From the NCBI RefSeq assembly GCF_900115755.1, contig NZ_FOXQ01000006.1, forward strand, positions 248,001 through 312,000: a stretch of 64,000 nucleotides of DNA, read 5' to 3'. Positions 596 through 48,849 of this stretch are shown here, piece after piece. The position numbers and the translations under genes are program-made. Numbering within the stretch: the first letter of the stretch is position 1; each line of letters begins with the position of its first letter. Below the pieces are notes generated by a model. That model saw only the letters and a program-made list of their open reading frames with translations, had not been told where the DNA came from and ran no database searches. This stretch comes from Parafilimonas terrae. Its GTDB lineage: Bacteria > Bacteroidota > Bacteroidia > Chitinophagales > Chitinophagaceae.

Positions 596-704
596 GTTTA
601 CAAGTTCACAGGTTTTCTTGTTCACAGGTTGAAGTTAACCACGCAGTTGTAACCTTAGCCAGATGCTCAAACAAGTAAACTTGTGAACAGGTGAACGCTT
701 GAAC
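596..704. repeat. Inverted-arm degenerate word repeat (word about GTTCACAGG)
   Basis: Left arm 596-634 contains tandem drifting copies of a word like GTTCACAGG. Right arm 668-704 contains the same word in reverse complement (GTGAACAGGTGAAC). The two arms could fold into an imperfect hairpin around an unrelated centre. The element fills the gap between pcm and the asparaginase-domain gene. Confidence 0.6.
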
Positions 705-710
705 TTTTCT

Positions 711-1367
711 CTAATTATTTTTCCCTTTCAACATAGGTACGAAAGAAAAATAATCAAACCATTCTTCATCATAACTGCCATCAGCTTTTTTGGTAAGGCG
801 CAGCATACGTTGCTTATCCCCTTCATTCACGGGCAATACCATTAAACCGCCTGCTTTTAACTGCTCCACTAATTTGGGCGGAATAAAAGGTGCTGCAGCT
901 GTAATAAGCACTTTATCAAAAGGCGCATAAGCCGGCAATCCTTCAAAGCCATCTCCGTAAAAAAATTTTATGTTAGGATATTTTGTTTTGAAGAAGAAAG
1001 ACTTATTAATGTCGTACAATTTACGCTGCCGTTCTATTGTATAAACCCATGCGCCTAATTCCGCCAGCACGCTTGCCTGGTAAACACTGCCGGTGCCTAT
1101 TTCAAGAATTTTATCGCCGCGATGCACATTCAATAATTGCGTTTGATAAGCAACGGTATAAGGCTGGGAAATAGTTTGCTCCGCCGCAATGGGAAATGCC
1201 CTGTCTTCATAAGCAATTTTATCAAAAGCAGAATCTAAAAAAAAATGCCGCGGCACATTATACATGGCTTCCAGCACCATTTCTGATGTTATGCCTTTTG
1301 TGCGCAATGAATCTATCAGTTTTTTTCTTAACCCTTTATGCTGGTATGTATCTTCCAGTTTTCTCAT
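711..1367 (-). CDS. pcm: Protein-L-isoaspartate O-methyltransferase
   Basis: A cytoplasmic repair enzyme that methylates L-isoaspartyl residues formed by asparagine deamidation or aspartate isomerisation, using SAM. The 218 residues match the family length. SAM-binding motif I lies at residues 88-99 and reads LEIGTGSVYQAS; the usual form is GTGSGYQ, so the third glycine is Val95 here. The post-I acidic residue (YTIERQ), GDGFEG, and the ITAAAPFIPP motif near residue 160 are all present. The ATG at 1367 lies 5 nt after a promoter element, which suggests a leaderless transcript. The asparaginase-domain gene follows on the same strand after a repeat element. Confidence 0.92.
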   Translation of the reverse strand: MRKLEDTYQHKGLRKKLIDSLRTKGITSEMVLEAMYNVPRHFFLDSAFDKIAYEDRAFPIAAEQTISQPYTVAYQTQLLNVHRGDKILEIGTGSVYQASVLAELGAWVYTIERQRKLYDINKSFFFKTKYPNIKFFYGDGFEGLPAYAPFDKVLITAAAPFIPPKLVEQLKAGGLMVLPVNEGDKQRMLRLTKKADGSYDEEWFDYFSFVPMLKGKNN

Positions 1368-1372
1368 TGCTG

Positions 1373-1402
1373 CAAACCTAAAAAGCTTGCGCTAACTTTC
1401 AA
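1373..1402 (-). promoter_or_regulatory. Promoter of pcm (TTG, 19 nt, TAGGTTTG)
   Basis: On the minus strand TTG at 1402-1400 is followed by 19 nt and TAGGTTTG at 1380-1373. Both the elements and the spacing fit the Bacteroidota -33/-7 consensus. The -7 element ends 5 nt before the pcm ATG, so transcription would start at or next to the start codon. Confidence 0.65.
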
Positions 1403-1559
1403 TAGATGTTGAAGAAATTATTATGATGTCTGGTTATTAACATCTGCGCATTATATAGCATCTCCTTTAACTTTAAGGTAAATCTGCAACTTATGAAGAA
1501 CGGTCGTCATTTAAAGCAAACCATACCATCTGCGGATTAAAATAAAAGTGCTTAAGGTG

Positions 1560-3011
1560 CTACTGCCATCCGCCACCCAGCGAACGGTATAATTGCACCA
1601 ATGCTATTAATACATCTTTACGGTTATCATTTAGTTCGAGTTCGGCCTGCAATACACTTTTCTGAGCCGTAATAACTTCAAGATAAGAAGCGTAGCCTGC
1701 AACGTATAATTCGTTTGCAGAAGTTACGCCATTACTGAGCTCATTTACTTCCAGTTGTTTAAGCATTTGAATATGCCTTTTGTTTTTTATATCGTTCAAT
1801 CCTATATACACTTCATTGAAACTATTCAGCAGTGATTGCTGGTATTTATAAAAAGCTTCCTTTTGGGCCGCCCCAGCTAATTGATAATTACCCTCTATTG
1901 CTTTTTTATTGAACAAAGGTGCTGTTAGCCCTCCAAGCAAACCATACGTAACCGAGGCGGCATTAAACAGCAAATTTCCCTTGAAAGAATTTAAACCGAA
2001 GTAAGGTGTTATGGTTAAAGCAGGCATTGCTGCCGCATTGGCCGATGCCACATCGAATTTGGTTGCCTGCAGTTCTAAAGCAGCCTGCTGCACATCAGGC
2101 CTTCTTGTTACCATTGCTGATGGAATGCCGGCATATATAACTTCAGGCAATTGTTTTTTTAAAGTACTGCTATCTCTTGCAACAGGCCGCGGATAGCGGC
2201 CAAGCAGGTAATTTATATGTGCTTCAATTGCTGTTATCTGTTGCTTTGCTTCATATTCATAACCCTGTGTATTGTACAACTGCGCCTGGAATTGCTGCAC
2301 GGCAAGCGAGGTACTTTTGCCCGTTTCCTGCATAATTTTTACAACATCCAAAGCATCCTGCTGGTATTTAATATTTCGCTGAATTATCTTTAACTGGTTA
2401 TCCAGTGCCAACAGGCTATAATAACTTGAAGCAATGTCTGCCACCAGCGATGTTACAATAAACTGCCTGCCTTTTTCTGAAGCCAAAACCCTTGCCGCAG
2501 AAGCTTCACGGGCATTTTTTAATCTTCCCCAAATATCAATTTCCCAGTTGCTGTGCAAGCCAATAAAATAATCCTGAACAATTGGCTGCGTTACACGTTG
2601 CTTATCGTTTATATTACCAGAAAGATTAGTGTCGTAATTGCCTACGCCGCTCATGGTATATTTACCATATTTATCAATAGCTGTTGAAACGGCTGCATTT
2701 ACCGTGGGCTGCAGTGCCCCTTTATTCTTTAATAATTGCGCTTTGGCAGATTCTATTCTTTGCCAGGCAATCTGAATGTCCTGGTTATTAGCCAAAGCCG
2801 AATCAATCAGCTTAACTAACAAGCTGTCTCTGAAAAATGTGCGCCATTCTATATTGCCAATACCGGTACTGTCTTTGCCGGATTCTATAAATTTATCAGG
2901 CACATCCTTTAATTCAGGCGTTATAACAGGTTTATAAGTTTTACAGCCTGTGGCAACTAAAAGCAATACAATAAGGATATGATAAATGCTCTTATATTTT
3001 GTTTTCATCAT
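1560..3011 (-). CDS. RND efflux outer-membrane channel lipoprotein (TolC/OprM-like)
   Basis: This 483-residue protein is the outer-membrane factor of a tripartite RND pump and forms the exit duct through periplasm and outer membrane. A lipobox (LVATGC, Cys23) ends the signal peptide. Two outer-membrane efflux repeats follow, with the typical NQDIQIAWQRIESA helix near residue 97 and VTRRPDVQQAALEL in the second half, a hallmark of the NodT/OprM class. The gene is last in the operon, and its start overlaps the end of the permease gene by 20 nt, which suggests translational coupling. Substrate cannot be inferred. Confidence 0.93.
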   Translation of the reverse strand: MMKTKYKSIYHILIVLLLVATGCKTYKPVITPELKDVPDKFIESGKDSTGIGNIEWRTFFRDSLLVKLIDSALANNQDIQIAWQRIESAKAQLLKNKGALQPTVNAAVSTAIDKYGKYTMSGVGNYDTNLSGNINDKQRVTQPIVQDYFIGLHSNWEIDIWGRLKNAREASAARVLASEKGRQFIVTSLVADIASSYYSLLALDNQLKIIQRNIKYQQDALDVVKIMQETGKSTSLAVQQFQAQLYNTQGYEYEAKQQITAIEAHINYLLGRYPRPVARDSSTLKKQLPEVIYAGIPSAMVTRRPDVQQAALELQATKFDVASANAAAMPALTITPYFGLNSFKGNLLFNAASVTYGLLGGLTAPLFNKKAIEGNYQLAGAAQKEAFYKYQQSLLNSFNEVYIGLNDIKNKRHIQMLKQLEVNELSNGVTSANELYVAGYASYLEVITAQKSVLQAELELNDNRKDVLIALVQLYRSLGGGWQ

Positions 3012-6000
3012 TGTCTTTATTCAAACGTTTTTTATGATGGTGATAATGCGTATGTTCATGATGATCGAACTCTTCAGAAAAGGGAATTTCATGCTGATAT
3101 GATGACTCCTCACTTTCTCCTTTTCTCTTCTTTCCAATACTTGCAAACAGAACATATAAACCGGGTATAATTAAAACCCCGAATATGGTTCCCGCCAGCA
3201 TACCGCCTGCTGCTGCCGTACCTATTGAACGGTTCCCCATGGCGCCAGCGCCACTGGCCACACAAAGCGGGATAAGCCCTGCAATAAAGGCAAATGAGGT
3301 CATCAATATTGGCCGCAACCTCGATTTGGCCCCTATTACCGCAGCTTCCAAAATTGATATGCCTTTTTGCCGCTGCATTTCAGCAACCTCCACAACCAAT
3401 ATGGCATTCTTGCCCAACAGGCCAATCAACATTATCAATGCCACCTGCGCATAAATATTATTTTCAAGCCCTAACACCTTCAAAAAGAAAAAAGCGCCGA
3501 ATATACCAGCCGGCAATGAGAGCAATACAGATAAGGGCAATGCGAAGCTTTCATATTGTGCTGCCAGCAACAGGTAAACAAATACAAGGCAAATAATAAA
3601 AATGTATGCTGCCTGGTTGCCGCTTTCAATTTGTTCTCTCGTCATTCCGCTCCATTCAATGGTGTAACCTCTTGGCAGTTTTTCTTTAGCAATGGTTTCA
3701 ATAGCTTTAATAGCATCGCCGCTGCTATAGCCCCTGGCTGCATCACCAGTAATCATAGCCGATGTGTACATGTTATAACGCGTAATTTGTTCAGGGCCTA
3801 ATACTTTTTCCAGTGTTATAAAAGATGAATAAGGCACCATTTCACCTTTATCATTCTTCACATACAAATTCAAAACATCATTTTCTGTATTGCGGTACGA
3901 TGGGGAAGCCTGCAGCATTACCTTATACATTTGATTAAACCGTATAAAATTGGTGGCATAGTAACTGCCCAGCAGGGTTTGCAAAGTGCTCATGGCATTA
4001 TCAATGCTTACACCTTTTTGCGCCGCCATATCCTGGTCAACATGAATTATATATTGAGGAAAGCTGGGATTGAAGCTGGTATAAGCTCCTGCAATAGCCG
4101 GGTTATTATTCAACTGCTCTGTAAAACTTTTTGTTACATTGGCCGTAGCAGCAAGCCCGGTTGCTTTATTTTTATTCAACAACCTTAATTCAAATCCACT
4201 TGCATTACCAAATCCCGGAACTGTTGGTGGTGAAAAATATTCAATAGAGGCATCAGCAATATATTTTGTTTTTTTATTCAGCATTTCTATTACTTCATCA
4301 ATACTTTCTTTACGATCTTCCCATGTTTTAAGATTGATCATTGCCATGCCATAAGAAGCTCCTGATATTTCGCTCATTAAACTATAACCGGCCAGTGTGC
4401 TGATGTTATCCACCTGCGGCATATCTTTCGTTGCCAGTTCAATTTCATCAAGTATTTTCTCCGTTCTGTCAACTGTTGACCCGGGTGGTGTGGTAACATT
4501 CACATAAATCATGCTCTGGTCTTCAGAAGGAATAAAACCTGTGGGCAAAATGGTGGCTATTCCCCCTGTGGCTAAACAGAAAAACCCGAAAAGGGCAAGT
4601 GTTACAAGCTTACGGCCAGCAAGCTTTCCCACAATACCGGCATATTTATTTTCCACCTTATTATAACCTTTATTAAAACCACCAAACAGGCGTTGCAATA
4701 AGCTTTTCTTAGGTTTTGTATTATGCTTTAACAGTAAAGCGCACAAGGCCGGCGTAAGCGTCAAAGCATTAATGCCGGATATAACAATAGAGATAGCCAG
4801 TGTTAACGAGAATTGTCTGTAAAATACGCCTACCGGTCCCGACAGGAAGGCAACCGGTATAAACACGGCCGACATAACAAGCGTTATGGCAATGATGGCC
4901 CCGCTTATTTCTTCCATTGCTTCTACTGTGGCTTCCAATGGCGGCAGGTGCTGTTCCGTCATTTTCACATGCACTGCCTCTACCACCACAATTGCATTAT
5001 CTACTACTATACCAATGGCCAGCACCAATGCAAACAGCGTTAACATATTTAAAGAGAAGCCAAGTATTTGCATAAATGCCAGCGAGCCTACCAATGCCAC
5101 AGGAACAGCAAGTGCAGGAATAATGGTTGAACGGAAATCCTGCAGGAAAATAAATACAACAACAAACACAAGCAGGAAAGCTTCTATCAATGTGCGTACC
5201 ACTTCATGAATACTGGCATCTAAGAACCTTGATACATCATAAGCATAATTGTACGTCATGCCGGGCGGGAAAGAACTTTCTTTCAATTCTTCCATCTTCG
5301 CCTTGATATTATTGATAACATCCCTTGCATTGCTCCCAGGCCTTTGCTTAATCATAATGGAAGCAGAAGGGCGGCCATCTGTTTTGGAAGACATATCATA
5401 ACTCTCTGTTCCAAATTCAACAGCAGCGATGTCTTTTAGTTTTAAAATGGTACCGTCGGGCTGTGCACGCAATACAACCGCCTCATAAGCTTCGGGCGTA
5501 TTAAACTTACCGGTATATTTTAATACAAACTGCGCTACCTGGTTGCCTTTGCCTGAGTTTTCCCCAATTACGCCTGGGGCTGCTTCTATATTCTGCCTGC
5601 GCAGCGCTTCTATCACTTCTTCGGTTGAAATATTATAGGCCAGCATTCGGTCTGGCTTTAGCCAAACCCGCATGGCATAATCACGCACGCCCATTATATC
5701 AACAAGCCCAACGCCTTCAATGCGCTTTAATTCCTGCAATACATTTATATCGGTGAAGTTGTAAATAAATTCTTCGTTCACCGTGCTGTCTTCACTAAAT
5801 ATGTTTAAAAACAGCAGCATGCTGTTTACTTCTTTTTCGGTGGTAACACCGGCACGAATTACCTCTTCCGGCAATTCATCTAATATGGTGGTTACCCGGT
5901 TCTGCACATTCACTGCTGCCTGGTCCGGGTCAGTTCCAACTTTAAACATTACCTGTATCTGCGTAACGCCATTGTTGCTGCTGACAGAATTCATATAAGT

Positions 6001-6225
6001 CATGCCGGGCACACCATTAACAGCACGCTCCAGGGGTATGGCAACCGCATTGGCGCATACTTCGGCATTGGCGCCATTATAGGTAGCTGTAACCACCACA
6101 GATGGCGGAACAATATCGGGGAATTGTGTAACCGGCAATGAAAACAGCGCCAGTACACCAAGCAATACTATAATAAGGGATACAACAAGCGAAAGCACCG
6201 GCCTTCGTATAAATATTTCAACCAT
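2992..6225 (-). CDS. RND multidrug efflux inner-membrane permease (HAE1/AcrB type)
   Basis: A 1077-residue proton-driven drug/H+ antiporter with twelve expected membrane helices and two large periplasmic loops. The N-terminus FIRRPVLSLVVSLIIVLLG fits the HAE1 class. In helix 4 the usual AspAsp pair of AcrB reads VVDNAIVVVE, so one acid is Asn; the helix 10 relay lysine is present in GLLGKNAILVVE. These motifs favour a multidrug pump over a CusA-like metal pump. The C-terminal tail of about 48 residues is polar and carries a His-rich stretch, HHEHTHYHHHKK, at residues 1055-1066 on the predicted cytoplasmic side. It is flanked by adaptor and channel genes in the standard order. Confidence 0.95.
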   Translation of the reverse strand: MVEIFIRRPVLSLVVSLIIVLLGVLALFSLPVTQFPDIVPPSVVVTATYNGANAEVCANAVAIPLERAVNGVPGMTYMNSVSSNNGVTQIQVMFKVGTDPDQAAVNVQNRVTTILDELPEEVIRAGVTTEKEVNSMLLFLNIFSEDSTVNEEFIYNFTDINVLQELKRIEGVGLVDIMGVRDYAMRVWLKPDRMLAYNISTEEVIEALRRQNIEAAPGVIGENSGKGNQVAQFVLKYTGKFNTPEAYEAVVLRAQPDGTILKLKDIAAVEFGTESYDMSSKTDGRPSASIMIKQRPGSNARDVINNIKAKMEELKESSFPPGMTYNYAYDVSRFLDASIHEVVRTLIEAFLLVFVVVFIFLQDFRSTIIPALAVPVALVGSLAFMQILGFSLNMLTLFALVLAIGIVVDNAIVVVEAVHVKMTEQHLPPLEATVEAMEEISGAIIAITLVMSAVFIPVAFLSGPVGVFYRQFSLTLAISIVISGINALTLTPALCALLLKHNTKPKKSLLQRLFGGFNKGYNKVENKYAGIVGKLAGRKLVTLALFGFFCLATGGIATILPTGFIPSEDQSMIYVNVTTPPGSTVDRTEKILDEIELATKDMPQVDNISTLAGYSLMSEISGASYGMAMINLKTWEDRKESIDEVIEMLNKKTKYIADASIEYFSPPTVPGFGNASGFELRLLNKNKATGLAATANVTKSFTEQLNNNPAIAGAYTSFNPSFPQYIIHVDQDMAAQKGVSIDNAMSTLQTLLGSYYATNFIRFNQMYKVMLQASPSYRNTENDVLNLYVKNDKGEMVPYSSFITLEKVLGPEQITRYNMYTSAMITGDAARGYSSGDAIKAIETIAKEKLPRGYTIEWSGMTREQIESGNQAAYIFIICLVFVYLLLAAQYESFALPLSVLLSLPAGIFGAFFFLKVLGLENNIYAQVALIMLIGLLGKNAILVVEVAEMQRQKGISILEAAVIGAKSRLRPILMTSFAFIAGLIPLCVASGAGAMGNRSIGTAAAGGMLAGTIFGVLIIPGLYVLFASIGKKRKGESEESSYQHEIPFSEEFDHHEHTHYHHHKKRLNKDNDENKI

Positions 6226-6327
6226 TTAAATAACTTTAATTGTGCTGTAGCAATAATTATTTTGTGAAAATGCAACTGACGGGCTGATGCCAAAAGCACA
6301 GCTATATACCGCAATAATATTTATGAT

Positions 6328-7449
6328 TTAACGCGTGGCGAGAAGGCTATCGGCTGCAAGCATGCGTGGCTCTATACGCATTCCATCACGTATGTTTTGC
6401 ACCCCTTCATACACAATTTTATCGCCAGACTTGAGGCCTGACTGAACTACAAAATATCGGTCTATCCTGGTGCGTGGCACAAAGGTTTTCATCTTAACAG
6501 TACTGTCTGTATTCAATACAAAAACATAGTTTTTATCCTGTATATCAAATACAGCCTTTTGTGGCACCATTAAAGCATTATGCACTTGGGTAGTGATGCT
6601 GATTTTACCTGTAGAACCGTGTTTCAAAATCTTGTCGGGATTAGGAAACCTTGCCCGGAAAGCGATGGAGCCTGTGCCCTGGTCAAACTCTCCTTCCATG
6701 GTTTCTATTTTACCGCTACTGCCATACACTGAACCGTCGGAGAGAATGAGTTTTACGTTATTATCAGGAAGGTTCTTGTTGGTTTGAAGGTTGCGCACAT
6801 ATTCGAGGTATTCATTTTCAGATACCCTGAAATAGGCCAATACTTCAGAAAGGTCTGAAACAGTAGTAAGCAGGTCGCCTTCATTTATAAGGCTGCCCAG
6901 CTTAAGCGGTATTCGGTCTATAACACCATTAAAAGGCGCCCTTATTAAAGTGTGCGATAAATGCAGGGCTGCCTCATCTTCTATTGCCTGCTGTTCATTC
7001 AGCCGGGCTTGTGCGCCTTTTAGTTTTGACTGGGCTAATTCAAGTTCTGTTTTTGATATAACTTTTTTATCAACCAGCAACTGTATTCTTTTTATTTCCA
7101 GTTCAGATGCATGTACTGCAGCCTTTGCATCGGCTACGCCCGCCCTTGCTTTGGCAAGGTCGAGTTGAAACTGCTGATCATTTAATTTAAATAAGGGCTG
7201 GCCCTTTGATACAGGCTTCCCTTCATCCACATAAATTTTTTCAAGATAGCCCTGCAATTTGGAACGTATCTCCACATTTTGAACAGCCTGCACATCCGCT
7301 ACATAACCATTTTGAAGGCTTGTATCTTCCGGCTTTAATTGTATAACAGGCAATACCGGAATTTCTTTTTGCTTTTTGTTTTCAGTATTAGAACTACAGC
7401 CTGTAATAACAATAATAATAGCGCAATAAATAATAGGTTTTATATTCAT
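6328..7449 (-). CDS. RND efflux periplasmic adaptor lipoprotein (membrane fusion protein)
   Basis: A 373-residue adaptor that links the permease to the outer-membrane channel. A short signal peptide ends at a lipobox (VITGC, Cys18). After it come a beta strand and half lipoyl motif (NVEIRSKLQGYLEKIYVDEG), an alpha hairpin rich in Ala/Lys/Glu around residues 90-155, the second half lipoyl motif (IRAPFNGVIDRIPLKLG), and the beta-barrel and membrane-proximal domains. It precedes the permease gene by about 100 nt on the same strand, in the common adaptor-permease-channel order. The family is clear; the substrate is not. Confidence 0.94.
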   Translation of the reverse strand: MNIKPIIYCAIIIVITGCSSNTENKKQKEIPVLPVIQLKPEDTSLQNGYVADVQAVQNVEIRSKLQGYLEKIYVDEGKPVSKGQPLFKLNDQQFQLDLAKARAGVADAKAAVHASELEIKRIQLLVDKKVISKTELELAQSKLKGAQARLNEQQAIEDEAALHLSHTLIRAPFNGVIDRIPLKLGSLINEGDLLTTVSDLSEVLAYFRVSENEYLEYVRNLQTNKNLPDNNVKLILSDGSVYGSSGKIETMEGEFDQGTGSIAFRARFPNPDKILKHGSTGKISITTQVHNALMVPQKAVFDIQDKNYVFVLNTDSTVKMKTFVPRTRIDRYFVVQSGLKSGDKIVYEGVQNIRDGMRIEPRMLAADSLLATR

Positions 7450-7526
7450 CGTTACAAATTTTTGGTTTAATCGTGCTCATAATGGCTATAAGCAATACCA
7501 CATGTATTCAATATGTAACAATGAAA

Positions 7527-9598: not shown

Positions 9599-9625
9599 TT
9601 GTAAGATTAATATCAGCTTTTTAGT

Positions 9626-9667
9626 TTGCCACAGATGCACAGGTTTTCATTTGTGCATCTGTGGCAA
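9626..9667. repeat. Perfect 16-bp inverted repeat between convergent rocD and manA
   Basis: TTGCCACAGATGCACA (9626-9641) is matched exactly by its reverse complement at 9652-9667, with a 10-nt loop. It lies between two convergent genes and could end transcription from both sides. No long T-run follows on either strand, so it is not a textbook intrinsic terminator. Confidence 0.75.
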
Positions 9668-9701
9668 TAATGTTCTGCGCATTATAATATTCCTAAATCC
9701 T

Positions 9702-21209: not shown

Positions 21210-21309
21210 CAATAAAATATTCAATATTCAACAATACAATACCCAATGTTCAATTGTAAACATCTGCAAAATAACTATTGAATATTGAGCATTGATTATT
21301 TACAATTTT
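21210..21309. repeat. Inverted-arm degenerate word repeat (word about TTCAATA)
   Basis: Left arm 21210-21260 holds drifting copies of a word like ATTCAATATTCAA. Right arm 21275-21309 holds the reverse-complement form (ATTGAATATTGAGCATTGAT). It lies between two convergent genes. Confidence 0.6.
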
Positions 21310-25410: not shown

Positions 25411-25414
25411 CATA

Positions 25415-30355: not shown

Positions 30356-30358
30356 TTT

Positions 30359-30442
30359 GATGTGCTGATGTGCTGATGTGATAATTTGCTAATAATCTTG
30401 TGATTTTCATTAGCAGGATTAGCACATTAGCTTATTTGCTAA
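30359..30442. repeat. Inverted-arm degenerate word repeat (word about GCTGATGT) between atpD and atpC
   Basis: Left arm 30359-30402 holds tandem copies of GTGCTGATGTGCTGATGTG grading into GCTAATAATC. Right arm 30408-30442 holds the inverse (ATTAGCAGGATTAGCACATTAGC). The element fills the whole atpD-atpC gap, so the atpC translation start region lies inside it. Confidence 0.65.
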
Positions 30443-31960
<1,518 letters not shown>

Positions 31961-39105: not shown

Positions 39106-39202
39106 GCATATAGGAAGAAGCTGTTATCTGATAAAGATTTCCAAAACACCTGATCAATAATTCATACAAATTTTAAATAAGACAAACCAACAGTTCATTG
39201 AA

Positions 39203-39571: not shown

Positions 39572-40750
39572 TTGCGCGACATATTTTTTAAACACATTGC
39601 CCAAACATCGCCTGCACCTATCGGGCTTGAAATTGTAAAGGCTGAAGGCATTTATCAATACGATGTAAAAGGTAAACGATACATCGATTTAATTTCGGGT
39701 TTTAATGTGGCCAACATAGGGCATTCAAATCCTAAAGTAATTGAAGCTGTTAAAAAGCAGGTGGATGAATATATGCACCTGATTGTTTATGGTGAGTTTA
39801 TAGAAACGCCGCAAACGGCTTATGCCAAATTGCTTACGGAGCATCTTCCTTCAACATTGGATTGCATTTATTTTACCAACAGCGGTGCAGAAGCAACAGA
39901 AGGCGCTTTAAAGCTGGCAAAACGCGCCACCGGCCGCACGAATATTATCGCATTCAATAAAAGTTATCATGGCAGCACGCAGGGCGCATTAAGCGTTATG
40001 GGCGATGAATATTACCGCAATGCTTTCAGGCCTTTGCTGCCCGGCATTTTACATATCGACTATAACAGCGATGAAGTTTTTGACCTAATAAATGAAGCAA
40101 CAGCCTGCGTAATTCTTGAAACGGTACAGGCAGAAAGTGGTATTACTGTACCATCAAAAACATGGATGCAGCAACTGCGAAAAAAATGCACAGAACAGGG
40201 CGCTTTACTCATTCTTGATGAAATACAGGCAGGCTTTGGCAGAACCGGAACGTTGTGGGCATTTGAACAATTTGATATTGTTCCTGATATTTTATTATTG
40301 GGTAAAGCTTTAGGTGGCGGCATGCCGCTTGGCGCATTTATAGCTAATAAAAATGTGATGCAAACTTTAAGTTTTAATCCCGTGCTTGGGCATATCACAA
40401 CGTTTGGCGGGCATCCTGTAAGCTGCGCTGCGGGCAAAGCTGCGTTTGAAGTTTTATTAGCCGGGAATTATATAAACTATGTAAAAAAGAAAGAAGCACT
40501 TTTAATTGAACAATTACATCATCTGTCCATAAAAAAAATAAATCATTTTGGCTTATGGGCTTCTCTTCAGTTTAAAACAATGGAAACAGCTCAAAACATT
40601 ATTCATGCATGTGTTGATAACGGTTTGATTACAGACTGGTTTGTTTTTGCGCCTGACAGATTGCGCATCGCCCCGCCTTTGATAATTAAAGAGGATGAAA
40701 TTAAAAATGCTTGTGAAATTATTTTGAAGGCGATTGAAGAATATGCCTGA
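39572..40750 (+). CDS. Class III aminotransferase (acetylornithine/GABA-type family)
   Basis: A 392-residue PLP enzyme of fold type I. Marks are DLISGFNVANIGHSNPKV near residue 40, FTNSGAEATEGALKLAKRA near 100, SYHGSTQGALSVMG near 133, ILDEIQAGFGRTGTLWAFEQ near 212 and the PLP lysine in LLLGKALGGGMPLGAF. It is a paralogue of rocD in the window but lacks the ornithine aminotransferase signatures. The amino donor is not clear; acetylornithine, beta-alanine or GABA type enzymes are all possible. The start is a TTG. Confidence 0.82.
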   Translation: MRDIFFKHIAQTSPAPIGLEIVKAEGIYQYDVKGKRYIDLISGFNVANIGHSNPKVIEAVKKQVDEYMHLIVYGEFIETPQTAYAKLLTEHLPSTLDCIYFTNSGAEATEGALKLAKRATGRTNIIAFNKSYHGSTQGALSVMGDEYYRNAFRPLLPGILHIDYNSDEVFDLINEATACVILETVQAESGITVPSKTWMQQLRKKCTEQGALLILDEIQAGFGRTGTLWAFEQFDIVPDILLLGKALGGGMPLGAFIANKNVMQTLSFNPVLGHITTFGGHPVSCAAGKAAFEVLLAGNYINYVKKKEALLIEQLHHLSIKKINHFGLWASLQFKTMETAQNIIHACVDNGLITDWFVFAPDRLRIAPPLIIKEDEIKNACEIILKAIEEYA

Positions 40751-40766
40751 AATTAAAGCACTACTA

Positions 40767-41123: not shown

Positions 41124-41124
41124 T

Positions 41125-41418: not shown

Positions 41419-41433
41419 CAATATCTATTTTAT

Positions 41434-41441
41434 CAAAGATA
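41434..41441 (-). promoter_or_regulatory. -7 promoter element of higBA
   Basis: Minus-strand TATCTTTG fits TAnnTTTG, 15 nt before the TTG start of higB. I cannot define a HigA operator by eye. Confidence 0.55.
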
Positions 41442-41502
41442 AGAAAAGTTACCAAATTGGGAAATTACAATATTAACCGTTTTTTATTTTCCGCCATTGC
41501 TT

Positions 41503-41510
41503 TAGGTTTG
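41503..41510 (+). promoter_or_regulatory. -7 promoter element of the PfkB-kinase gene
   Basis: TAGGTTTG fits TAnnTTTG exactly, 20 nt before the ATG at 41531; a TTTT tract lies 19 nt upstream. Confidence 0.6.
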
Positions 41511-41530
41511 CGGCAAACCAAAAAATTAAA

Positions 41531-42454
41531 ATGAGTATTACTGTAGTAGGAACAATGGCTTTTGATGCTATTGAAACGCCTTTTGATAAAACGGATAAAA
41601 TTATTGGCGGATCGGCAACCTATGTGGCTTATGCAGCGTCTTTTTTTGTGCAACCAATTCAACAAATTTCCATTGTGGGCAACGATTTTCCACAGGAAGA
41701 ATTGCAGGCGCTGCAAGCCAGGGGTGTTAAAACAGATGGCGTTGAAATTGTGCCTGATAAAAAATCATTTTTCTGGAGCGGCAAATATCATCTTGATATG
41801 AACAGCCGTGATACCTTAATTACCGACTTGAATGTACTGGCTGATTTTGACCCCAATGTTCCGGACAGTTACCAGGATTGCGATTTTTTAATGCTCGGCA
41901 ATCTCGTGCCTGCCATTCAGCAAAAAATAATCAACCAGTTTAAACAGCGCCCGAAATTAATTGTAATGGATACCATGAATTTCTGGATTGAAACGGCATG
42001 GGAAGACCTTAAACAAACGCTTACCATGGTGGATGTTTTGCTGGTAAACGACAGTGAAGCCAGACAAATAACCGGTGAATATTCGCTTGTAAAAGCAGCT
42101 AGAAAAATATTAACAATGGGGCCAAAATTTCTTATTGTGAAAAAAGGTGAGCATGGCGCTTTACTGTTTCATGAAAACAAAGTTTTCTTTGCTCCCGCAA
42201 TGCCATTGGATGATGTGTTTGACCCAACCGGCGCCGGCGATACTTTTGCAGGCGGCTTCATTGGCCATCTTGCAAAAACAAAAGATATTTCTTTTGAGAA
42301 CATGAAAACTGCCATTATTGTTGGTTCTGCCATGGCAAGTTTTTGCGTGGAAAAATTTGGTACGGAGCGCTTAAAAGAAATTTCAAAGGAAGATATTGGA
42401 AACCGCTTACAGGAATTTGTGCAGCTCGTTAACTTCGATATTACTTTGGCATAA
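41531..42454 (+). CDS. PfkB-family carbohydrate kinase
   Basis: A 307-residue ribokinase-like sugar or nucleoside kinase. Marks are GGSATYVAYAASFF near residue 26 and the second PfkB signature DDVFDPTGAGDTFAGGFIGHLA near residue 225, with the catalytic Asp in GAGD. The substrate is not evident: ribose, adenosine, fructose-type sugars and others are possible. It precedes an L,D-transpeptidase gene by about 50 nt on the same strand, but the two need not be linked in function. Confidence 0.88.
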   Translation: MSITVVGTMAFDAIETPFDKTDKIIGGSATYVAYAASFFVQPIQQISIVGNDFPQEELQALQARGVKTDGVEIVPDKKSFFWSGKYHLDMNSRDTLITDLNVLADFDPNVPDSYQDCDFLMLGNLVPAIQQKIINQFKQRPKLIVMDTMNFWIETAWEDLKQTLTMVDVLLVNDSEARQITGEYSLVKAARKILTMGPKFLIVKKGEHGALLFHENKVFFAPAMPLDDVFDPTGAGDTFAGGFIGHLAKTKDISFENMKTAIIVGSAMASFCVEKFGTERLKEISKEDIGNRLQEFVQLVNFDITLA

Positions 42455-42505
42455 AAGCATTGCTTTGGTGTGATAATTGAAAATAAAATTCCCATAATTT
42501 CAAAT

Positions 42506-44137
42506 ATGAAAAAATTATTGTGGGCTATTCTTTTTACAGGTATTGGCGTTTATTCATGCAAATCAAAACAAAAAGAAAAAATAGAAGTTGATAAAAGTAT
42601 TAATCAAAAAACATCTTTTAATAACCTCTTCATTGATAGTAATACCATCAAAGTTTTTTTAACAAAACATCCTGAATACACAAAGTTCATCCAGCAGTAT
42701 AGTGATTTTTATAAGTTACGCAATTATCAATGTGCATGGTTTGACAGCAGTGGCATTGGCGAGCAAGCTTATAATTTTATGAACCTGCTCGCAAATGCCG
42801 TTGATACATATAGCGACAGCAGTTTATACAATAAAAAACTCTCTGATGAAGTAGATGAGTTTAAAACAGACACTTCAAATAAAAATATAAAAACAACGCA
42901 GAATATTACTGACACAGAGTTAAAGCTCACGGGCCAGTTCTTTGCTTATGCTTCAAAAATTTATGGCGGCAGCGATATAAATATCCAGGAGCTTGGCTGG
43001 TTTATTCCACGTAAAAAACTAAACCTTTCTGTAATGCTTGATTCGCTTATCGCGAATAAATCAGACATTAAAAAAACTGAAATTCCTTTAAGCAGTGCAT
43101 ATAAAAAGTTGCTCGACTATCTTTCCGTTTATCGCAAGATAGCACAAACCACACCATGGGATTCTCTGCCATATCCTGAAAAGGCACTTCATAAAGGCGC
43201 CACATCACCCGAAATAATAACCATAAAAAAACGCCTGTTTGCTTTGGGAGATATGGAAGAAAGCGATACAACAGATATTTTTGATTCGTTAATGCTGTCG
43301 GCCGTAAAAAAGTTCCAGGTGCGCATGGGTGTAAGCCCGGATGGTGTAATTGGAAAATCATTTATTACACAACTAAATGTAACGCCGGCTAAAAGAATAG
43401 AACAAATTCTTATAAACCTTGAGCGCCTGCGCTGGATGCCGCCAATGAATGACAGCACAAATTCGATTGTGGTAAACATTCCTGAATATAAAATGTATGT
43501 GTATGATAGCGGGAAGCTTCAGTTTCCTATGAACGTTGTTGTAGGTTCATCGGCCACCGGCACCGTTATATTTACGGGCAACTTAAAATACATCGTGTTT
43601 AGCCCGTATTGGAATATACCGGCAAGTATTGTGAAGAAAGAAATATTACCGGGCATTGCACGCAATCCTAATTACCTGGCCGCACACCACATGGAGCAGT
43701 TTGGCATGCAGGCAAAAGGTGTTCCGGCAATAAGACAATTGCCCGGCGCTGACAATGCTTTGGGCAGGGTAAAATTTTTATTTCCAAACAACTTCGATAT
43801 TTATTTTCACGATACGAATAATCGTGGAGCATTTAATGCATCAAACAGGAACATCAGTCATGGGTGCATTCGTTTGAGCGAACCTAAAAAACTCGCTATG
43901 TATTTGCTGCGTTACGATACAGCAACTTACAATAACCAAACGGTTGACAGCCTCATGAGCCTTGATAAAGAAAAATGGGTAACGCTTAAAAAACCAGTAC
44001 CGGTAGTAATAAGTTATTATACTGCGTTTGTTGACAATAATGGCAGCCTCAATTTTCGCCGTGATATTTATAAACATGATTCTGCAATGGCAGCCAAATT
44101 ATTTACCGGCAACAGTAATTTAATGGCATTGAAATAA
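42506..44137 (+). CDS. L,D-transpeptidase (YcbB/YkuD family) lipoprotein
   Basis: A 543-residue periplasmic cell-wall enzyme that forms 3-3 crosslinks or attaches proteins to peptidoglycan. I start it at the ATG at 42506, which gives a lipoprotein signal (GVYSC lipobox); an earlier GTG would add 12 residues. A peptidoglycan-binding repeat (ITIKKRLFALGDM, then VKKFQVRMGVSPDGVIGKSF) precedes the YkuD catalytic domain (about 320-490), with IVVNIPEYKMYVYDSGKLQF and the motif SHGCIRLSEP, where Cys454 is the nucleophile. The layout matches YcbB-like murein L,D-transpeptidases. Confidence 0.93.
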   Translation: MKKLLWAILFTGIGVYSCKSKQKEKIEVDKSINQKTSFNNLFIDSNTIKVFLTKHPEYTKFIQQYSDFYKLRNYQCAWFDSSGIGEQAYNFMNLLANAVDTYSDSSLYNKKLSDEVDEFKTDTSNKNIKTTQNITDTELKLTGQFFAYASKIYGGSDINIQELGWFIPRKKLNLSVMLDSLIANKSDIKKTEIPLSSAYKKLLDYLSVYRKIAQTTPWDSLPYPEKALHKGATSPEIITIKKRLFALGDMEESDTTDIFDSLMLSAVKKFQVRMGVSPDGVIGKSFITQLNVTPAKRIEQILINLERLRWMPPMNDSTNSIVVNIPEYKMYVYDSGKLQFPMNVVVGSSATGTVIFTGNLKYIVFSPYWNIPASIVKKEILPGIARNPNYLAAHHMEQFGMQAKGVPAIRQLPGADNALGRVKFLFPNNFDIYFHDTNNRGAFNASNRNISHGCIRLSEPKKLAMYLLRYDTATYNNQTVDSLMSLDKEKWVTLKKPVPVVISYYTAFVDNNGSLNFRRDIYKHDSAMAAKLFTGNSNLMALK

Positions 44138-44168
44138 AAGATGTTCAGTCAGCATTAAACACATTTTT

Positions 44169-44325
44169 CGTGAATTGTCAATCGTGAATATAAAAGTATG
44201 ATGATATCGATGCAAAACCAGGTTTGATTTATTTATGAAAAAGCCTGCTGACGTTAATAACAATTATTGATTTGAAGCATCTTACTCACAACTGGCCACT
44301 CACAATTCACACAAAAACTTTTCAC
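44169..44325. repeat. Inverted-arm degenerate word repeat (word about GTGAATTGT)
   Basis: Left arm 44169-44189 has GTGAATTGTCAATCGTGAAT. Right arm 44285-44325 holds the inverse (CTCACAACTGGCCACTCACAATTCACAC). The reading frame opening at 44272 runs through the right arm, so the true start of the next gene is the later ATG at 44344. Confidence 0.6.
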
Positions 44326-44343
44326 ATTTTATCATATCAAACC

Positions 44344-44748
44344 ATGCCGTCCATTCCAAAAAAATTCAGCATACACATGCAGGTGCAGCAACCTCATATT
44401 GATGCAATGAACCATGTAAACAATGTGGTTTATATACAATGGATGCAGGATATCGCTTCTATGCACTGGCATGCAATCGCCACGCCTGAATTAAAAAATA
44501 AACTTGTATGGATGATAAGAAAACATGAAGTGAATTATCATAACCAGGCTTTCTTAAATGATAACCTGCTTATAACAACATGGACGGGAGAATATACAAA
44601 CGTGACCTGGAAACGCCATTATGAAATAACCCGCCCGGCAGATAATAAAAAAATTATCAGTGCAGTAAGCTTGTGGATACCTGTTGATGTGGAAACGCAA
44701 AAACCTCAGCGTATTGATGAAGCTATGGTAAGATTGTTTATGCAGTAA
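44344..44748 (+). CDS. Hotdog-fold acyl-CoA thioesterase (4HBT type)
   Basis: A 134-residue hotdog protein (from ATG at 44344). The signature HIDAMNHVNNVVYIQWMQDIA near residue 20 has the catalytic Asp of the 4HBT class in DAMNHVN, followed by KLVWMIRKHEVNYHNQAFLNDNLLI. Such enzymes hydrolyse acyl-CoA thioesters; the acyl chain is unknown. It ends 14 nt from the convergent modular exported protein gene. A longer frame upstream overlaps a repeat and is rejected. Confidence 0.88.
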   Translation: MPSIPKKFSIHMQVQQPHIDAMNHVNNVVYIQWMQDIASMHWHAIATPELKNKLVWMIRKHEVNYHNQAFLNDNLLITTWTGEYTNVTWKRHYEITRPADNKKIISAVSLWIPVDVETQKPQRIDEAMVRLFMQ

Positions 44749-44762
44749 TGGTTATATGCGCA

Positions 44763-45959
44763 TTACTTTCCATCATAATAGAAAACAATTTTAGCATTGG
44801 TTTGCATATCTGTTTTTACAGATAATTTATAAACCTTCTCTCCCACCGTAACACGCATCAGTGCTGTATTTGGAGCAATTTTTCCAAGGTTCTCTGCAAT
44901 CATGGTAAACTCATGCATTGGGTTAGCAGCATCAGCATGAATTTTTATAGTGATAGGTTCTTTTAATAAAGTTTGATTGTTTACAATTAAAGCACCATTA
45001 TGATAAACGCTTACCCGGTCGCCATCAATTTGTGCATTGTCAAACAGCTCCAGTAAAATATCCGGCGTTGTTATGTGATATGTGTTTAATAAAACATTAT
45101 CCCTTGTTTCCAACGCTTTTGCAGTTGTGGGGCTCGCTGAATCTTTAACAGGCAATGGCGCTTTTGGTATAGAAGCTTTTGCAATGGAATCGTTTATATG
45201 CTGCGTTTTTTTTTGTCTGGCAATATTATTAGCAGCAGTTATCGAATCCTGCATTTGTTTATCATGCTTCTTTGCAAGGTTTATTGAATCAGCAATCTCT
45301 TTTCTTCTTTTTTTTACAAATGCAATTGCAGCAATTGTTGAATCTTTAATTCGTTGCTCTTCATTTTGCCGGACAATATTATTTGCAGCCGCAACAGAAT
45401 CGTTATACTTTTTTTCTGCGGCAATATCAGCAGGCGTTTTTTCTTTGCATGCAGAAAGATCATCTGCACCATCGCCAAAACGGGTAATAAGATATTGCTG
45501 TGTTGCTGAATCAAAATCGCAGATTGATTTATGGTAAACAGTAACGCCATTGCATTCCTTTTTACAACCAGAAATACGTGTAGTTAAAACAAGCCTGCTA
45601 TTTTCAATCGTTATATTATTCTCAGAGTTACAGTTTGAACAATCGCTCCATTCGCCATTTGGCGGGTTTTTCCTGTAAAGCACAGCACCATTCTTAATCA
45701 CGATAGTTTCACCATCAACAGAACCGATGAGCGCCGTTTCAACTTTTATATTATGACGGCCTTTTATTTCATTGGTTCTTATACCAAAAAAAGAATTGCC
45801 ATCAGTAGAATCTATTATGATGGTTCTTACGAGTTCAGTTTTATTAACGCTGGATGACCCATTCCATGTACCTAACAACCAGTTAAGGCTTTGGGCATTG
45901 TCGGCAAAGCATATAAAGCAGCCAGCCAGCAGCAGCGCCGGTTTTTTAAGTTTAATCAT
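44763..45959 (-). CDS. Modular exported protein: N-terminal beta domain, helical linker, conserved C-terminal domain
   Basis: A 398-residue protein with a signal peptide (cleavage near ADNAQS). The beta-rich N-terminal domain opens LGTWNGSSSV and has paired cysteines (CSNC, CKKEC). Residues about 180-275 form a charged helical linker with repeated DS-AANNI-RQ and DSI units, likely coiled coil. The last 98 residues (301-398) align without gaps with the C-terminus of the protein at 36975-38381, about half identical by eye (ELFDN-IDGDR, MHEFTMIAENLG, APNTALM). The two proteins are thus built alike but with different centres. Function is unknown. Confidence 0.75.
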   Translation of the reverse strand: MIKLKKPALLLAGCFICFADNAQSLNWLLGTWNGSSSVNKTELVRTIIIDSTDGNSFFGIRTNEIKGRHNIKVETALIGSVDGETIVIKNGAVLYRKNPPNGEWSDCSNCNSENNITIENSRLVLTTRISGCKKECNGVTVYHKSICDFDSATQQYLITRFGDGADDLSACKEKTPADIAAEKKYNDSVAAANNIVRQNEEQRIKDSTIAAIAFVKKRRKEIADSINLAKKHDKQMQDSITAANNIARQKKTQHINDSIAKASIPKAPLPVKDSASPTTAKALETRDNVLLNTYHITTPDILLELFDNAQIDGDRVSVYHNGALIVNNQTLLKEPITIKIHADAANPMHEFTMIAENLGKIAPNTALMRVTVGEKVYKLSVKTDMQTNAKIVFYYDGK

Positions 45960-45998
45960 AGAGCAAACAATTAGCTTCGTATACAGGATTAAAACGTG

Positions 45999-47288
45999 TT
46001 ACAAATTTACTTCTGCTACTAAAAATACGCTGCCACAAATTAAAACCAGGTCTTCTTTATCAGCACGGGTAATGGCTTCAGAAAGCGCTGCATTTACATC
46101 TTCAAAATATTTTCCTTTCAGGCCATGCACAGCAGCAAGGCCGGCAAGCATTTTTTCGTTTAGGGCCCTTGGCAATTGCGCTTTGGTAAAATAGTAATTC
46201 GCAGTTACAGGCAACAAAGACAGGATGCTTTCAATATCTTTATCTTTTACAAATCCAATAATCAAATGCAGGCGGGTATAGCTTTCAAGCTCAAGTTGTT
46301 CCAGCAGTTGTTTTATGCCCGCAGCATTATGCGCCACATCAACAATTACAGCCGGGTTTTCTTTTAATTTCTCCCATCGCCCGTGAAGGCCGGTGAGATG
46401 TTTTACTTGTTTTAAAGCCTTTTGTATATGCTGCAGTTTTATTTGCCATCCCTTGAGCTGCAGTTGATGCACCGCTTCTAAAACAGTAACTATATTTTTT
46501 GTTTGATAAATGCCCGGCAAATCGAGCAGGAAAGTATGATGTTCATCTTTTCTCACATCAACCACTTCTGCTTTCAAATGATTGTTTTCATAGTTGAAGT
46601 CCTGCACATAAAAATTTTCCTGTGCAAAAATCAGCGGTGCGTTTTTTTCTTTGGCAGCCGTTTGAAAAACCGGTCTTGTTTCATCCACAACTTCGCCGAT
46701 TATTGCAGGAATATTTTGCTTGATAATACCTGCTTTTTCATAGGCTATTTTTTCAAGCGTATCGCCCAGTATTTGCGTATGATCGTAACCAATATTTGTA
46801 ATGATTGAAAGTTCAGGCAATATAATATTCGTGCTGTCAAGCCTGCCGCCAAGCCCCGTTTCTATAACAGCTACATCTACATTTTGCTGCGCAAAATATT
46901 CAAACGCCATTGCAACCGTTATCTCAAAAAAAGAAGGTTCGAGACGTTCAAACTGTGGTTTAATTTTTTCAGTGAAATCAATAATAAATTCTTCAGTGCA
47001 CATTATACCATTCACTTTTATTCTTTCCCTGAAATCTTTTAAATGCGGCGACGTATATAAGCCTGTTTTATAACCGGCAGTTTGCAAAATGGCCGCCAGT
47101 ATATGGCTAACAGAACCCTTGCCATTTGTACCTGCAATATGAATGCTCTTAAATTTTTTTTGCGGGTTATTTAATGCAGCGCAAAGTTGTTTGGTATTGG
47201 TTAAATCTTTCTTGTAAGCATCTGTGCCAATGCGGCTGAACATGGGCAACTGTTCGTATAAATATGCAAGCGTATCAGCGTACGTCAT
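45999..47288 (-). CDS. folC: Folylpolyglutamate synthase / dihydrofolate synthase
   Basis: A 429-residue Mur-ligase-type enzyme that adds glutamate to dihydropteroate and folates. Marks are HIAGTNGKGSVSHILAAIL with the P-loop near residue 50, YTSPHLKDFRERIKVNG, VAVIETGLGGRLDSTNI near 138, NIGYDHTQILGDTLEKIAYEKAGI and DVAHNAAG near 315. It is followed by the modular exported protein gene on the same strand after 39 nt. Confidence 0.95.
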   Translation of the reverse strand: MTYADTLAYLYEQLPMFSRIGTDAYKKDLTNTKQLCAALNNPQKKFKSIHIAGTNGKGSVSHILAAILQTAGYKTGLYTSPHLKDFRERIKVNGIMCTEEFIIDFTEKIKPQFERLEPSFFEITVAMAFEYFAQQNVDVAVIETGLGGRLDSTNIILPELSIITNIGYDHTQILGDTLEKIAYEKAGIIKQNIPAIIGEVVDETRPVFQTAAKEKNAPLIFAQENFYVQDFNYENNHLKAEVVDVRKDEHHTFLLDLPGIYQTKNIVTVLEAVHQLQLKGWQIKLQHIQKALKQVKHLTGLHGRWEKLKENPAVIVDVAHNAAGIKQLLEQLELESYTRLHLIIGFVKDKDIESILSLLPVTANYYFTKAQLPRALNEKMLAGLAAVHGLKGKYFEDVNAALSEAITRADKEDLVLICGSVFLVAEVNL

Positions 47289-47371
47289 ACTGCAAAGTAA
47301 AATGAAAGATATTGGATTTGTATTGTAATCAATATTAGAAATATTAGATTTATATGAGATAGACTGTAATT

Positions 47372-47407
47372 AAAAGGCCGGAAAGCTTTTACACTTCCCG
47401 GCCTTTT
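47372..47407 (-). terminator. Intrinsic terminator of accBC
   Basis: A perfect 10-bp stem, AAAAGGCCGG/CCGGCCTTTT (47372-47381 with 47398-47407), lies 21 nt after the accC stop, with a T-run on the minus strand. Confidence 0.9.
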
Positions 47408-47427
47408 ATCGGTTATTAATTTTTACT

Positions 47428-48765
47428 TTATTCCATTACAAAAGTTTCCAGGAATTTGGTAGTGAAATTTCCTTTGCGGAAATCTTCGTTCTTCATCAAT
47501 TGAAGATGGAAAGGAATGGTTGTTTTTACTCCATCAATTACATACTCGCTTAAAGCACGGTACATGGTATCAATTGCTTCTTCACGGGTGCGGGCAACCG
47601 TTATGAGCTTGCCGATCATAGAATCGTAATACGGCGGAATTACATAACCTGCATATACATGGCTGTCAACACGCACACCATGACCGCCGGGTGTATTCAA
47701 TACATTTATCCTACCGGGTGAAGGCCGGAAATCATTATACGGGTCTTCCGCATTTATACGGCATTCAATAGCGTGCATTTGCGGTGCATAGTTTTCACCG
47801 GAAATTCTTTCGCCCATTGCAATTTTAATCTGCTCTTTTATAAGATCGAAATTGATAACTTCCTCTGTAACGCAATGTTCTACCTGTATGCGGGTGTTCA
47901 TTTCCATGAAGTAAAAATTACGGTGTTTATCAACCAGGAATTCTATGGTGCCCACGCTTTCATAATTAATAGCCGAAGCAGCTTTAATAGCGGCAGCGCC
48001 CATTTTTTCACGCAGTTCAGGCGTCATAAAAGGCGAAGGGGATTCTTCTACCAATTTCTGGTGCCTGCGCTGAATGCTGCAATCGCGTTCGCTTAAATGG
48101 CAAACCGTACCAAACTGGTCACCTGCAACCTGTATTTCTATATGGCGTGGCTCTTCCACAAATTTCTCCATATAAATGCCATCGTTTTTAAACGAAGCGG
48201 CTGCTTCAGCTTTAGCGGTATTATAAGCACGTTCAATTTCGCTTTCATTCCATACAACGCGCATGCCTTTGCCACCGCCACCAGCGGTTGCTTTTAATAT
48301 AATGGGATAACCAATTTCCTTTGCCAGCGATTTGGCTTCATCCAGGTCTTTTAATAAACCTTCACCGCCCGGCACTACAGGCACGCCTGCTTTTATCATG
48401 GTTTCTTTGGCGGTTATTTTATCGCCCATAGCATTAATCATGGCCGGCGTGGGCCCTATGAATTTAATACCATGATCGCCGCATATCTGTGCAAACTTTG
48501 AATTTTCTGCCAGGAAACCATAACCCGGGTGAATAGCATCAGCATTGGTAATTTCCGATGCGGCAATTATATGCGGAATATTAAGATAAGAATCGCTGCT
48601 TTGAGGCTTGCCAATGCATACAGCCTCGTCGGCAAAACGCACATGAAGGCTGTCTTTATCGGCAGTAGAATAAACAGCCACCGTTTTAATGCCCATTTCT
48701 CTGCAGGTTCTTATAACACGAAGGGCAATTTCGCCACGGTTGGCTATGAGTATTTTTTTAAACAC
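47428..48765 (-). CDS. accC: Acetyl-CoA carboxylase, biotin carboxylase subunit
   Basis: The 445-residue ATP-grasp subunit that carboxylates biotin on AccB with bicarbonate. Marks are [22 protein letters not shown] at the N-terminus, [25 protein letters not shown] with the Gly-rich ATP loop near residue 158, [17 protein letters not shown], and [15 protein letters not shown]. It follows accB on the same strand across an 84-nt gap that holds a word repeat. Confidence 0.97.
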
Positions 48766-48770
48766 TTTAA

Positions 48771-48849
48771 TAAATTAAAAATTAAAAATTAAAAATTAAA
48801 ATCGCGTTATGTCAAATGATGTTTTGACTTTTGATTTTTTAATTTTTAC
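48771..48849. repeat. Inverted-arm degenerate word repeat (word AAATTAAA) between accB and accC
   Basis: Left arm 48771-48801 is four tandem copies of AAATTAAA-type units. Right arm 48822-48849 carries the inverse (TTTTTTAATTTTTACT). It fills the accB-accC gap. Confidence 0.6.

Follow-up and report, generated by a model that had tools for sequence, protein, structure and literature searches.

The window analyzed here is a 64,000-nucleotide (nt) stretch of the Parafilimonas terrae genome (G000:C19:248001-312000; host genome of 4.99 Mb in 44 contigs), in which five intergenic gaps, referred to as sites 1 to 5, contain short hairpin elements whose two inverted arms are built from a drifting 7- or 8-nt word repeated around a spacer (Table 1). 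Profile searches identified the flanking genes as asparaginase and PCMT (pcm-like) genes at site 1, both on the minus strand, atpD and atpC at site 3, which fills that gap from stop to start, and accC and accB at site 5. An earlier note on this DNA had described one shared build for the five gaps, and the build was recognized in all of them when read, with four of the five exceeding shuffled sequence on their own. The words were partly revised: site 1 is made of the 8-mer GTTCACNN and not a 9-mer, site 2 of NTCAATN, and site 3 of GCTRATNN. Across the sites the period is 7 or 8, and some positions in each word are free to vary.

Table 1. Word-array features in the window, in window coordinates
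Feature	Position	Strand	Description
Site 1	596..706	.	Arms within 596-630 and 670-706; words GTTCACNN, period 8
Site 2	21213..21309	+	TTCAATA hairpin family copy (~100 bp), arms and spacer; convergent genes on either side
Site 3	30358..30444	.	Arms 30358-30393 and 30409-30444; words GCTRATNN, period 8
Site 4	44164..44316	.	Short arms 44164-44189 and 44284-44316; words GTGAATN, period 7
Site 5	48768..48851	.	Arms 48768-48801 (AAAAATT) and 48822-48851 (AAAAGTC/AAAAATT), period 7; accC-accB gap
Array without detected partner	59923..59952	.	Single, period 7, AAAAATT/AAAAGTC type
CAGCTAT array	56446..56483	+	Period 7, inside RsmB/F-like coding sequence
Composite array CAATTCC, TCAACCNN, CAATTCC	56681..56794	+	In frame, RsmB/F-like coding sequence
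TGGACTA array	63372..63397	.	Period 7, inside an open reading frame (ORF)

Each gap was compared with 400 of its own dinucleotide shuffles, scored on stem, tandem repetition, and both together. No shuffle reached any of the three scores at site 1 (596-704) or site 3 (30359-30442), and the respective counts were 8, 3, and 0 at site 2 (21210-21309) and 2, 0, and 0 at site 5 (48771-48849). Site 4 (44169-44325), the weakest of the five with about 94 nt between its arms, was equaled by 82, 58, and 9 shuffles and was not significant on its own. Among the 32 window gaps of 40 to 400 nt, there were six in which no more than 2% of 200 shuffles equaled the tandem score, namely, sites 1, 2, 3, and 5 and the gaps 9599-9701 and 59912-59955. 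By these shuffles, chance was rejected as the source of all sites but site 4, and likewise of the arrays in the genome sample. The gap 9599-9701 contains a strong ordinary hairpin with a weak tandem signal, and 59912-59955 contains a single array.

The abundance of such arrays was determined in a host sample of 864 kb, 17% of the genome with coding DNA included, in which genes were taken as the longest ORFs without a trained gene finder, so that gap borders are rough. Segments scoring at least 11 were counted per lag and compared with one dinucleotide shuffle. The counts were 91 versus 8 shuffled at period 7 and 30 versus 11 at period 8, with 26 versus 5 at lag 6, 18 versus 4 at lag 9, and 4 versus 6 at lag 10; at lag 7 or 8 there were 118 arrays, some of them within coding sequence as called. 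In the 237 gaps of C32:1-400000, a lag-7 score of at least 10 was found in 33 gaps versus 2.2 in shuffles and a lag-8 score in 7 versus 1.4, and an excess was also present at lag 14, twice 7 (19 versus 1.2), and at lag 4 (10 versus 2.8), with none at lags 5, 6, or 9 to 13. Stems scoring at least 12 occurred in 79 of 474 gaps versus 5.3 in shuffles, and in 19 of the 48 gaps with arrays versus 0.6. Since 53 of the 79 stems sit in gaps with a lag score below 9, word hairpins are one kind among several.

The arrays were preferentially paired in inverted orientation. At a threshold of 12, an inverted partner was present for 28 of 70 host intergenic arrays and a direct partner for 3, and the respective numbers were 58 and 12 of 92 in relatives, where some loci had been picked for arrays. 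At a threshold of 10 and within 150 nt, 43 of 107 host intergenic arrays had an inverted partner and 8 a direct one. The coding arrays of the host gave 3 inverted and 4 direct partners in 19, and those of relatives 5 and 1 in 17, some of the latter being gap edges mistaken for coding sequence. The proposal of the earlier note that the architecture is conserved while the words are interchangeable was borne out through the sampled genome and the relatives, far above shuffled sequence.

Arrays with stems were located mainly behind stop codons. In the host they occupied 19 of 274 codirectional, 6 of 55 convergent, and none of 84 divergent gaps; the relatives gave 22 of 198, 13 of 51, and 6 of 68, the avoidance of divergent gaps being weaker than in the host. 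In codirectional gaps of the host and relatives, 29 of 41 elements lay nearer the stop than the start, and none of 14 copies of the TTCAATA family was in a divergent gap. A coding position was occupied as well. In the RsmB/F-type methyltransferase gene at window 55834-57114, recognized by profile search, 111 nt of word arrays lie in a linker between anchors, compared to 18 to 39 nt in 14 relatives. The same linker in G003 is a clean AAATTCAA array of 27 nt, the length that it has in G002, G004, and G006, and in G007 it holds a CCCTTTAGGG-kind palindrome.

Site 2 is a copy of a dispersed host family, so the statement that the sites are not copies of one sequence stands between the five sites and does not extend to this one. 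The TTCAATA unit gave at least 53 match rows in the host genome at no fewer than 37 separate places, at least 30 of them over 60 bp or more; these are lower bounds, since 38 of 131 first-look candidates were scored. The window copy is in this list (C19:269221-269308, 81%), and its alignment (window 21221-21309) runs through the spacer. When the 70 host array sites of the 17% sample were clustered, 14 fell in the TTCAATA family. Congeners had 0 to 7 match rows each and G025, from another family, had 24. The TTCAATN pattern was matched 55 times in the host, 596 times in G015, and 82 times in G025, with no match in 20 of the 39 genomes compared for word patterns. A group of nine TTCAATA-type hairpin units of about 100 bp lies at G000:C21:16085-17507 (L157 2085-3507), in clusters of five and four that flank a 124-codon ORF. 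A G+C-rich palindrome of the CCCGCCTGACGGACGGGCAGG kind was seen inside TTCAATA copies, which gives the impression of one small element inserted into another (L157 ~3041-3056 and 3206-3230; C32 near 193320 and 742560).

The other sites differed in the extent of their copies. The arms of site 1, separated by 47 nt when paired, matched five other host places over 31 to 36 bp, at arm level only; site 3 had one 27-bp match elsewhere in the host genome and no other, and site 4 had arm-level matches at C32:68158-68197 (88%) and C21:155515-155540 (96%). Site 5 was matched by the same acc gap of G001 at 82% and of G006 at 79%, with further both-arm matches in G001 and G003. Its family had one other weak host match, and 18 match rows in G001 and 13 in G003, some of which are the same place on both strands.

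A second family was found in a relative, G015. The AATTTGAA pattern had 226 matches in that genome, 21 in G010, 17 in G019, and 3 in the host and was absent from 30 of the 39 genomes, and the reversed control gave none in G015 and one across all 39. Among the matches listed, a forward and then a reverse match were often about 121 bp apart. Of 60 loci fetched, 14 for a visible pair and 46 not, both arms were present in 47, including 33 of the 46 not selected for pairs. The two-armed copies usually measure about 155 bp (30 of 47 between 146 and 157 bp) with fixed ends. In the left arm, the outer word is near-fixed in 39 of 47 copies and the inner word in 41, the middle words being variable. Among 30 of the spacers, 70 to 92 nt long, the mutual similarity was weak (0.481 versus 0.410 for shuffled sequence).

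The earlier note had taken the architecture as a pointer to a generating mechanism, for example slippage plus template switching at hairpins, rather than to the spread of fixed elements. This was not supported where it could be examined, site 2 being copied with its spacer and the G015 family forming units of a usual size. Further evidence against it came from the arms themselves. Permuting the words of an arm barely lowered its fit to the partner (mean loss, 0.63 in 43 host arms), and the fit exceeded 95% of 40 word permutations in 5 of the 43 arms only, so the word order is not mirrored beyond permutation. For the same 43 arms, arms elsewhere in the sample fitted better (22.2) than the own partner (16.4), which pointed to copying between places; the best distant fit was above all six word permutations for 19 of 107 host arms. 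Renewal by fold-back predicts a greater likeness between the two arms of an element than between arms taken from different elements. In the G015 family, arms differed at 4.43 of 35 positions within elements and at 4.30 between them, with 3,814 of 5,000 permutations equally low, and in 16 TTCAATA copies the left-right fit was 16.38 within and 16.30 between elements. Same-side fits in these copies were higher, 18.43 for left-left and 20.37 for right-right, although two of the 16 came from a tandem cluster, which slightly raises the same-arm fit; each element therefore acts as a unit whose left and right arms are distinct. No trace of one arm having been copied from its partner by fold-back was found in the host sample, in G015, or in the TTCAATA family.

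Poor conservation of gene order limited the comparison by position to three of the window gaps. Six gene pairs were compared across the genus and family; in these, rpsD and rpoA were named by profile search and rpsK, rpsM, and rplQ by reading of translations. Arrays were present in 35 of 111 gaps (40 nt or longer) of other species, with 3 to 7 word groups per gap and a few of the words being of low complexity. With the host included, arrays occurred in 7 of 17 acc gaps, 10 of 16 atp gaps, and 5 of 22, 8 of 23, 4 of 19, and 6 of 20 of the other four; the word groups numbered 5, 6, 3, 7, 4, and 5 in the same order. A special status of these gaps was not supported: in codirectional gaps of relatives not picked for arrays the frequency was 27 of 143 (32 of 170 with picked loci included), and the excess at the six gaps is not evidence, since five of them had been selected for their array in the host. 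The sixth, rpsM-rpsK, had arrays in 5 of 21.

The words at one position differed within a genus. In the atpD-atpC gap, where the host has GCTRATNN, G001 and G003 carry AATTCGAC, G007 has arms that look AATTTGAA-like under the array threshold, G002 and G006 carry a CCCCTAAAGGGG palindrome, G005 has neither, and the gap of G004 is 17 nt long. In the acc gap, a word is common to G000, G001, and G006, and the arms there have changed less than the spacer, as judged by eye. Palindromes or half-palindromes of the CCCCTAAAGGGG kind were also seen in the same gaps of G002, G003, G005, G006, and G019 and in the coding linker of G007.

Some vocabulary is shared within the family. Of 40 arrays in other genera of the family, 11 used words of the host exactly, compared to 1 for reversed and 1.6 for shuffled words; this count leaves out loci picked for TTCAATN, with which it becomes 12 of 51 versus 2 and 2.0. 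Sharing was at chance with cyanobacterial loci (2 of 43 versus 2 reversed and 2.3 shuffled) and with other Bacteroidota loci (1 of 25 versus 1 and 1.2), and a vocabulary common to several phyla was not supported. Among the matches listed for TGAGTTN arrays, assigned to groups by hand from record titles, an inverted partner was found at 6 of 25 sites in cyanobacteria, 4 of 26 in Bacteroidota, and 4 of 25 elsewhere and a direct partner at 7, 1, and 2, respectively; the preference for inverted partners was not seen in the cyanobacterial set of these matches.

A role of the hairpins in RNA was considered from the stems. In 55 of the 111 family-member gaps of the six pairs, a stem was present that no more than 1 of 30 shuffles equaled, compared to an expectation of about 4 such gaps, and 50 of these 55 stems begin within 25 nt of the stop, word-built and simple stems both counted. 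Mismatches on the transcript strand of word stems were 29 G.U versus 37 A.C, and 16 versus 19 in the host. RNA-level selection was thus not indicated by an excess of G.U over A.C, in a test that is weak because stems without arrays gave only 24 G.U versus 18 A.C. An ordinary intrinsic terminator (G+C-rich stem, short loop, and T run) was not found at any of the five sites with a scan blind to loops longer than 8 nt. Rfam at the gathering threshold returned a tRNA at 53944-54016 and nothing else in the whole window, with no intron.

The short tandemly repeated repetitive (STRR) sequences of cyanobacteria are intergenic heptamer repeats, and an excess of tandem arrays with a 7-nt period, as in heptanucleotide arrays, was found in the host sample. 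GGGNATC heptamer arrays are described in Xanthomonas and Nostoc, those of Xanthomonas being nearer the end of the upstream gene (PMC4692102), and TAACTGA arrays in Beggiatoaceae, Cyanobacteria, and five Bacteroidetes (PMC4679880). The present arrays are like these in their 7-nt unit, intergenic position and, in some, drift, whereas the published ones, in the portions of the reports compared, are direct arrays of one word without inverted arms, common spacers, or interchangeable families. Among single precedents, the P6b stem-loop in the group I intron of the Nostoc tRNA-Leu(UAA) gene comes closest; it consists of degenerate heptanucleotides of classes I (TDNGATT) and II (NNTGAGT) whose origin is described there as not known (PMC4476775). 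Both have two complementary arms of drifting 7-nt words, with families of period 8 existing here as well, and in both one word class replaces another in place. As far as that description goes, P6b is one site in a structured trnL intron with two classes, whereas the present sites are many, with many words, and intergenic or coding. Words resembling P6b classes by eye were seen at C32:46467 and L061, cyanobacterial sharing being at chance as given above.

Repetitive extragenic palindromic (REP) sequences and REP doublets forming hairpins (REPINs) are small inverted units of extragenic DNA that lie behind genes and in gaps between convergent genes, and less in divergent gaps (PMC3116915 and PMC3733652). 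The elements described here share these positions, the inverted doublet form with a spacer, the proximity to 3' ends, the presence of several families per genome, and the occurrence of some copies inside genes. They differ in that REPs, in the sections compared, are short palindromes and not 7- to 8-nt word arrays, and in that no REP-associated tyrosine transposase (RAYT) gene flanked by the element was found in the genome. With miniature inverted-repeat transposable elements (MITEs), the G015 AATTTGAA and host TTCAATA families have in common terminal inverted repeats, short length, lack of coding sequence, dispersal, and a usual size. BrickBuilt of Porphyromonas gingivalis, a MITE containing a 23-nt minisatellite (PMC4596501), is likewise short and intergenic with inverted ends and tandem repeats; as described in the part compared, its tandem array is the body of the element, whereas here the arrays are the inverted arms with a drifting 7- to 8-nt unit. 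Among the papers listed by searches of an open-licence library, none was recognized as a description of dispersed hairpins with word-repeat arms in Bacteroidota, and the combination of features is a variant for which these searches gave no description.

Taken together, the evidence slightly favors the view that the sites represent several word-specific, lineage-specific families of REPIN- or MITE-like hairpins kept in tolerated DNA after stops. The process with the best support is one in which hairpin units, each specific to a word, spread and are turned over, the words drifting locally in addition. Each family would be defined by a word of 7 or 8 nt that recurs with drift in two inverted arms round a spacer, and whole elements would be copied within a genome, as seen for TTCAATA in the host and AATTTGAA in G015 and as indicated for AAAAATT in G001 and G003. 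Amplification would take place in some lineages and not in others, a pattern observed for two words, and elements would persist in tolerant DNA, where they were found just behind stops, in convergent gaps, and in the linker of one protein. Old elements would decay and other families would take the same gap, so that the word changes and the architecture persists; the pattern of turnover is visible in the gaps compared, and the insertions and losses behind it are presumed. Several observations weigh against this view. No target-site duplication was found in 41 clean G015 copies (k = 2 to 9), where flank matches equaled those of pairings between copies; a single-strand route or repair-associated copying would be compatible with this. 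Neither insertion nor excision at strain level was seen among the genomes compared, and no mobilizing gene was identified, with no search made for a gene-bearing element with the same arms. Of the 70 host array sites, 30 had no match of at least 50 bp to another site and 4 more matched an overlapping neighbor only. Repetitive words inflate arm alignments, and with one mismatch allowed, word sharing between genera hardly exceeded that of shuffled words (25 of 40 versus 21.6 shuffled and 13 reversed). The lack of a full-length host-genome copy of sites 1, 3, and 4 makes a local origin possible there.

Such a local birth, in which unconstrained DNA is rewritten by slippage in steps of 7 to 8 nt and template switching at hairpins with an own word per site, is a possible but rather doubtful general account. 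It would explain why periods 7 and 8 dominate across word families, why inverted partners outnumber direct ones, and why the G003 linker is a clean array of the same length as in G002, G004, and G006, but the unmirrored word order, the equal likeness of arms within and between elements in two families, the better fit of distant arms, and the spacers common to copies argue against it. The strong stems behind stops make selection for the stem a live rival, in the form of intercistronic RNA hairpins that serve mRNA processing, stability, or coupling and whose sequence is free as long as pairing is kept. The arms of the acc gap, by eye less changed than the spacer, and the preference for inverted arms in gaps but not in host coding arrays are consistent with it; we nevertheless consider it unlikely, given the G.U and A.C counts, the lack of terminator-like matches, the 16 further gaps of the same six pairs in family members that are shorter than 40 nt, and the arrays within coding sequence. 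REPINs proper, doublets moved by RAYT, would account for the form, the position, the missing target duplication, and the lineage-specific families, but are very improbable here. The 20 loci around PF01797 genes, which are part of the PF01797 match rows, contained one array, at the very edge of a locus (two further scan rows were a masked N run in L449), and G013 and G014, both 99% complete, have no PF01797 match, yet carry stemmed arrays in one and two compared gaps; these two results also count against the REPIN-like families favored above. A further reading, possible but rather doubtful, is that these mobile hairpins form a class of their own, with ends made of an iterated word of 7 or 8 nt. 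The word would be exchangeable, and new families would arise by word change with the build kept. The period could then be the reading step of the mover or of a template-switching polymerase, and the word-class switches of the Nostoc intron would be one instance of a process in several phyla.

In the literature compared, as far as it was covered, each account of heptamer arrays in the gaps of bacteria deals with a single word. The present data bring together a single build realized in many words, families of defined copies, and words that differ between species at one and the same gap of essential operons. They offer a way to study how word-class switches like that of the Nostoc intron could arise, and they draw attention to a kind of small element that gene and Rfam scans leave unseen.

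Two further observations concern related sequences. Conserved, leader-like blocks immediately precede rpsD (a sequence of the GGGTGCAGCATTTATTTTAAGATTTTTACTGATGCTGCATCGTCACTAAAAAATC kind) and rplQ (of the TGTAATTCCTGACACGGTACAGCC kind) at host C32 ~40345-40419 and 42220-42275, at L127, and at other alpha-operon loci; three ribosomal loci gave no Rfam match at the gathering threshold, and the blocks are kept in many relatives while the preceding hairpin changes. The three-word order GTTCACNN, CAATTCC, TCAACCNN recurs without inverted arms at C32:240310-240416, L159, L160, and L161.

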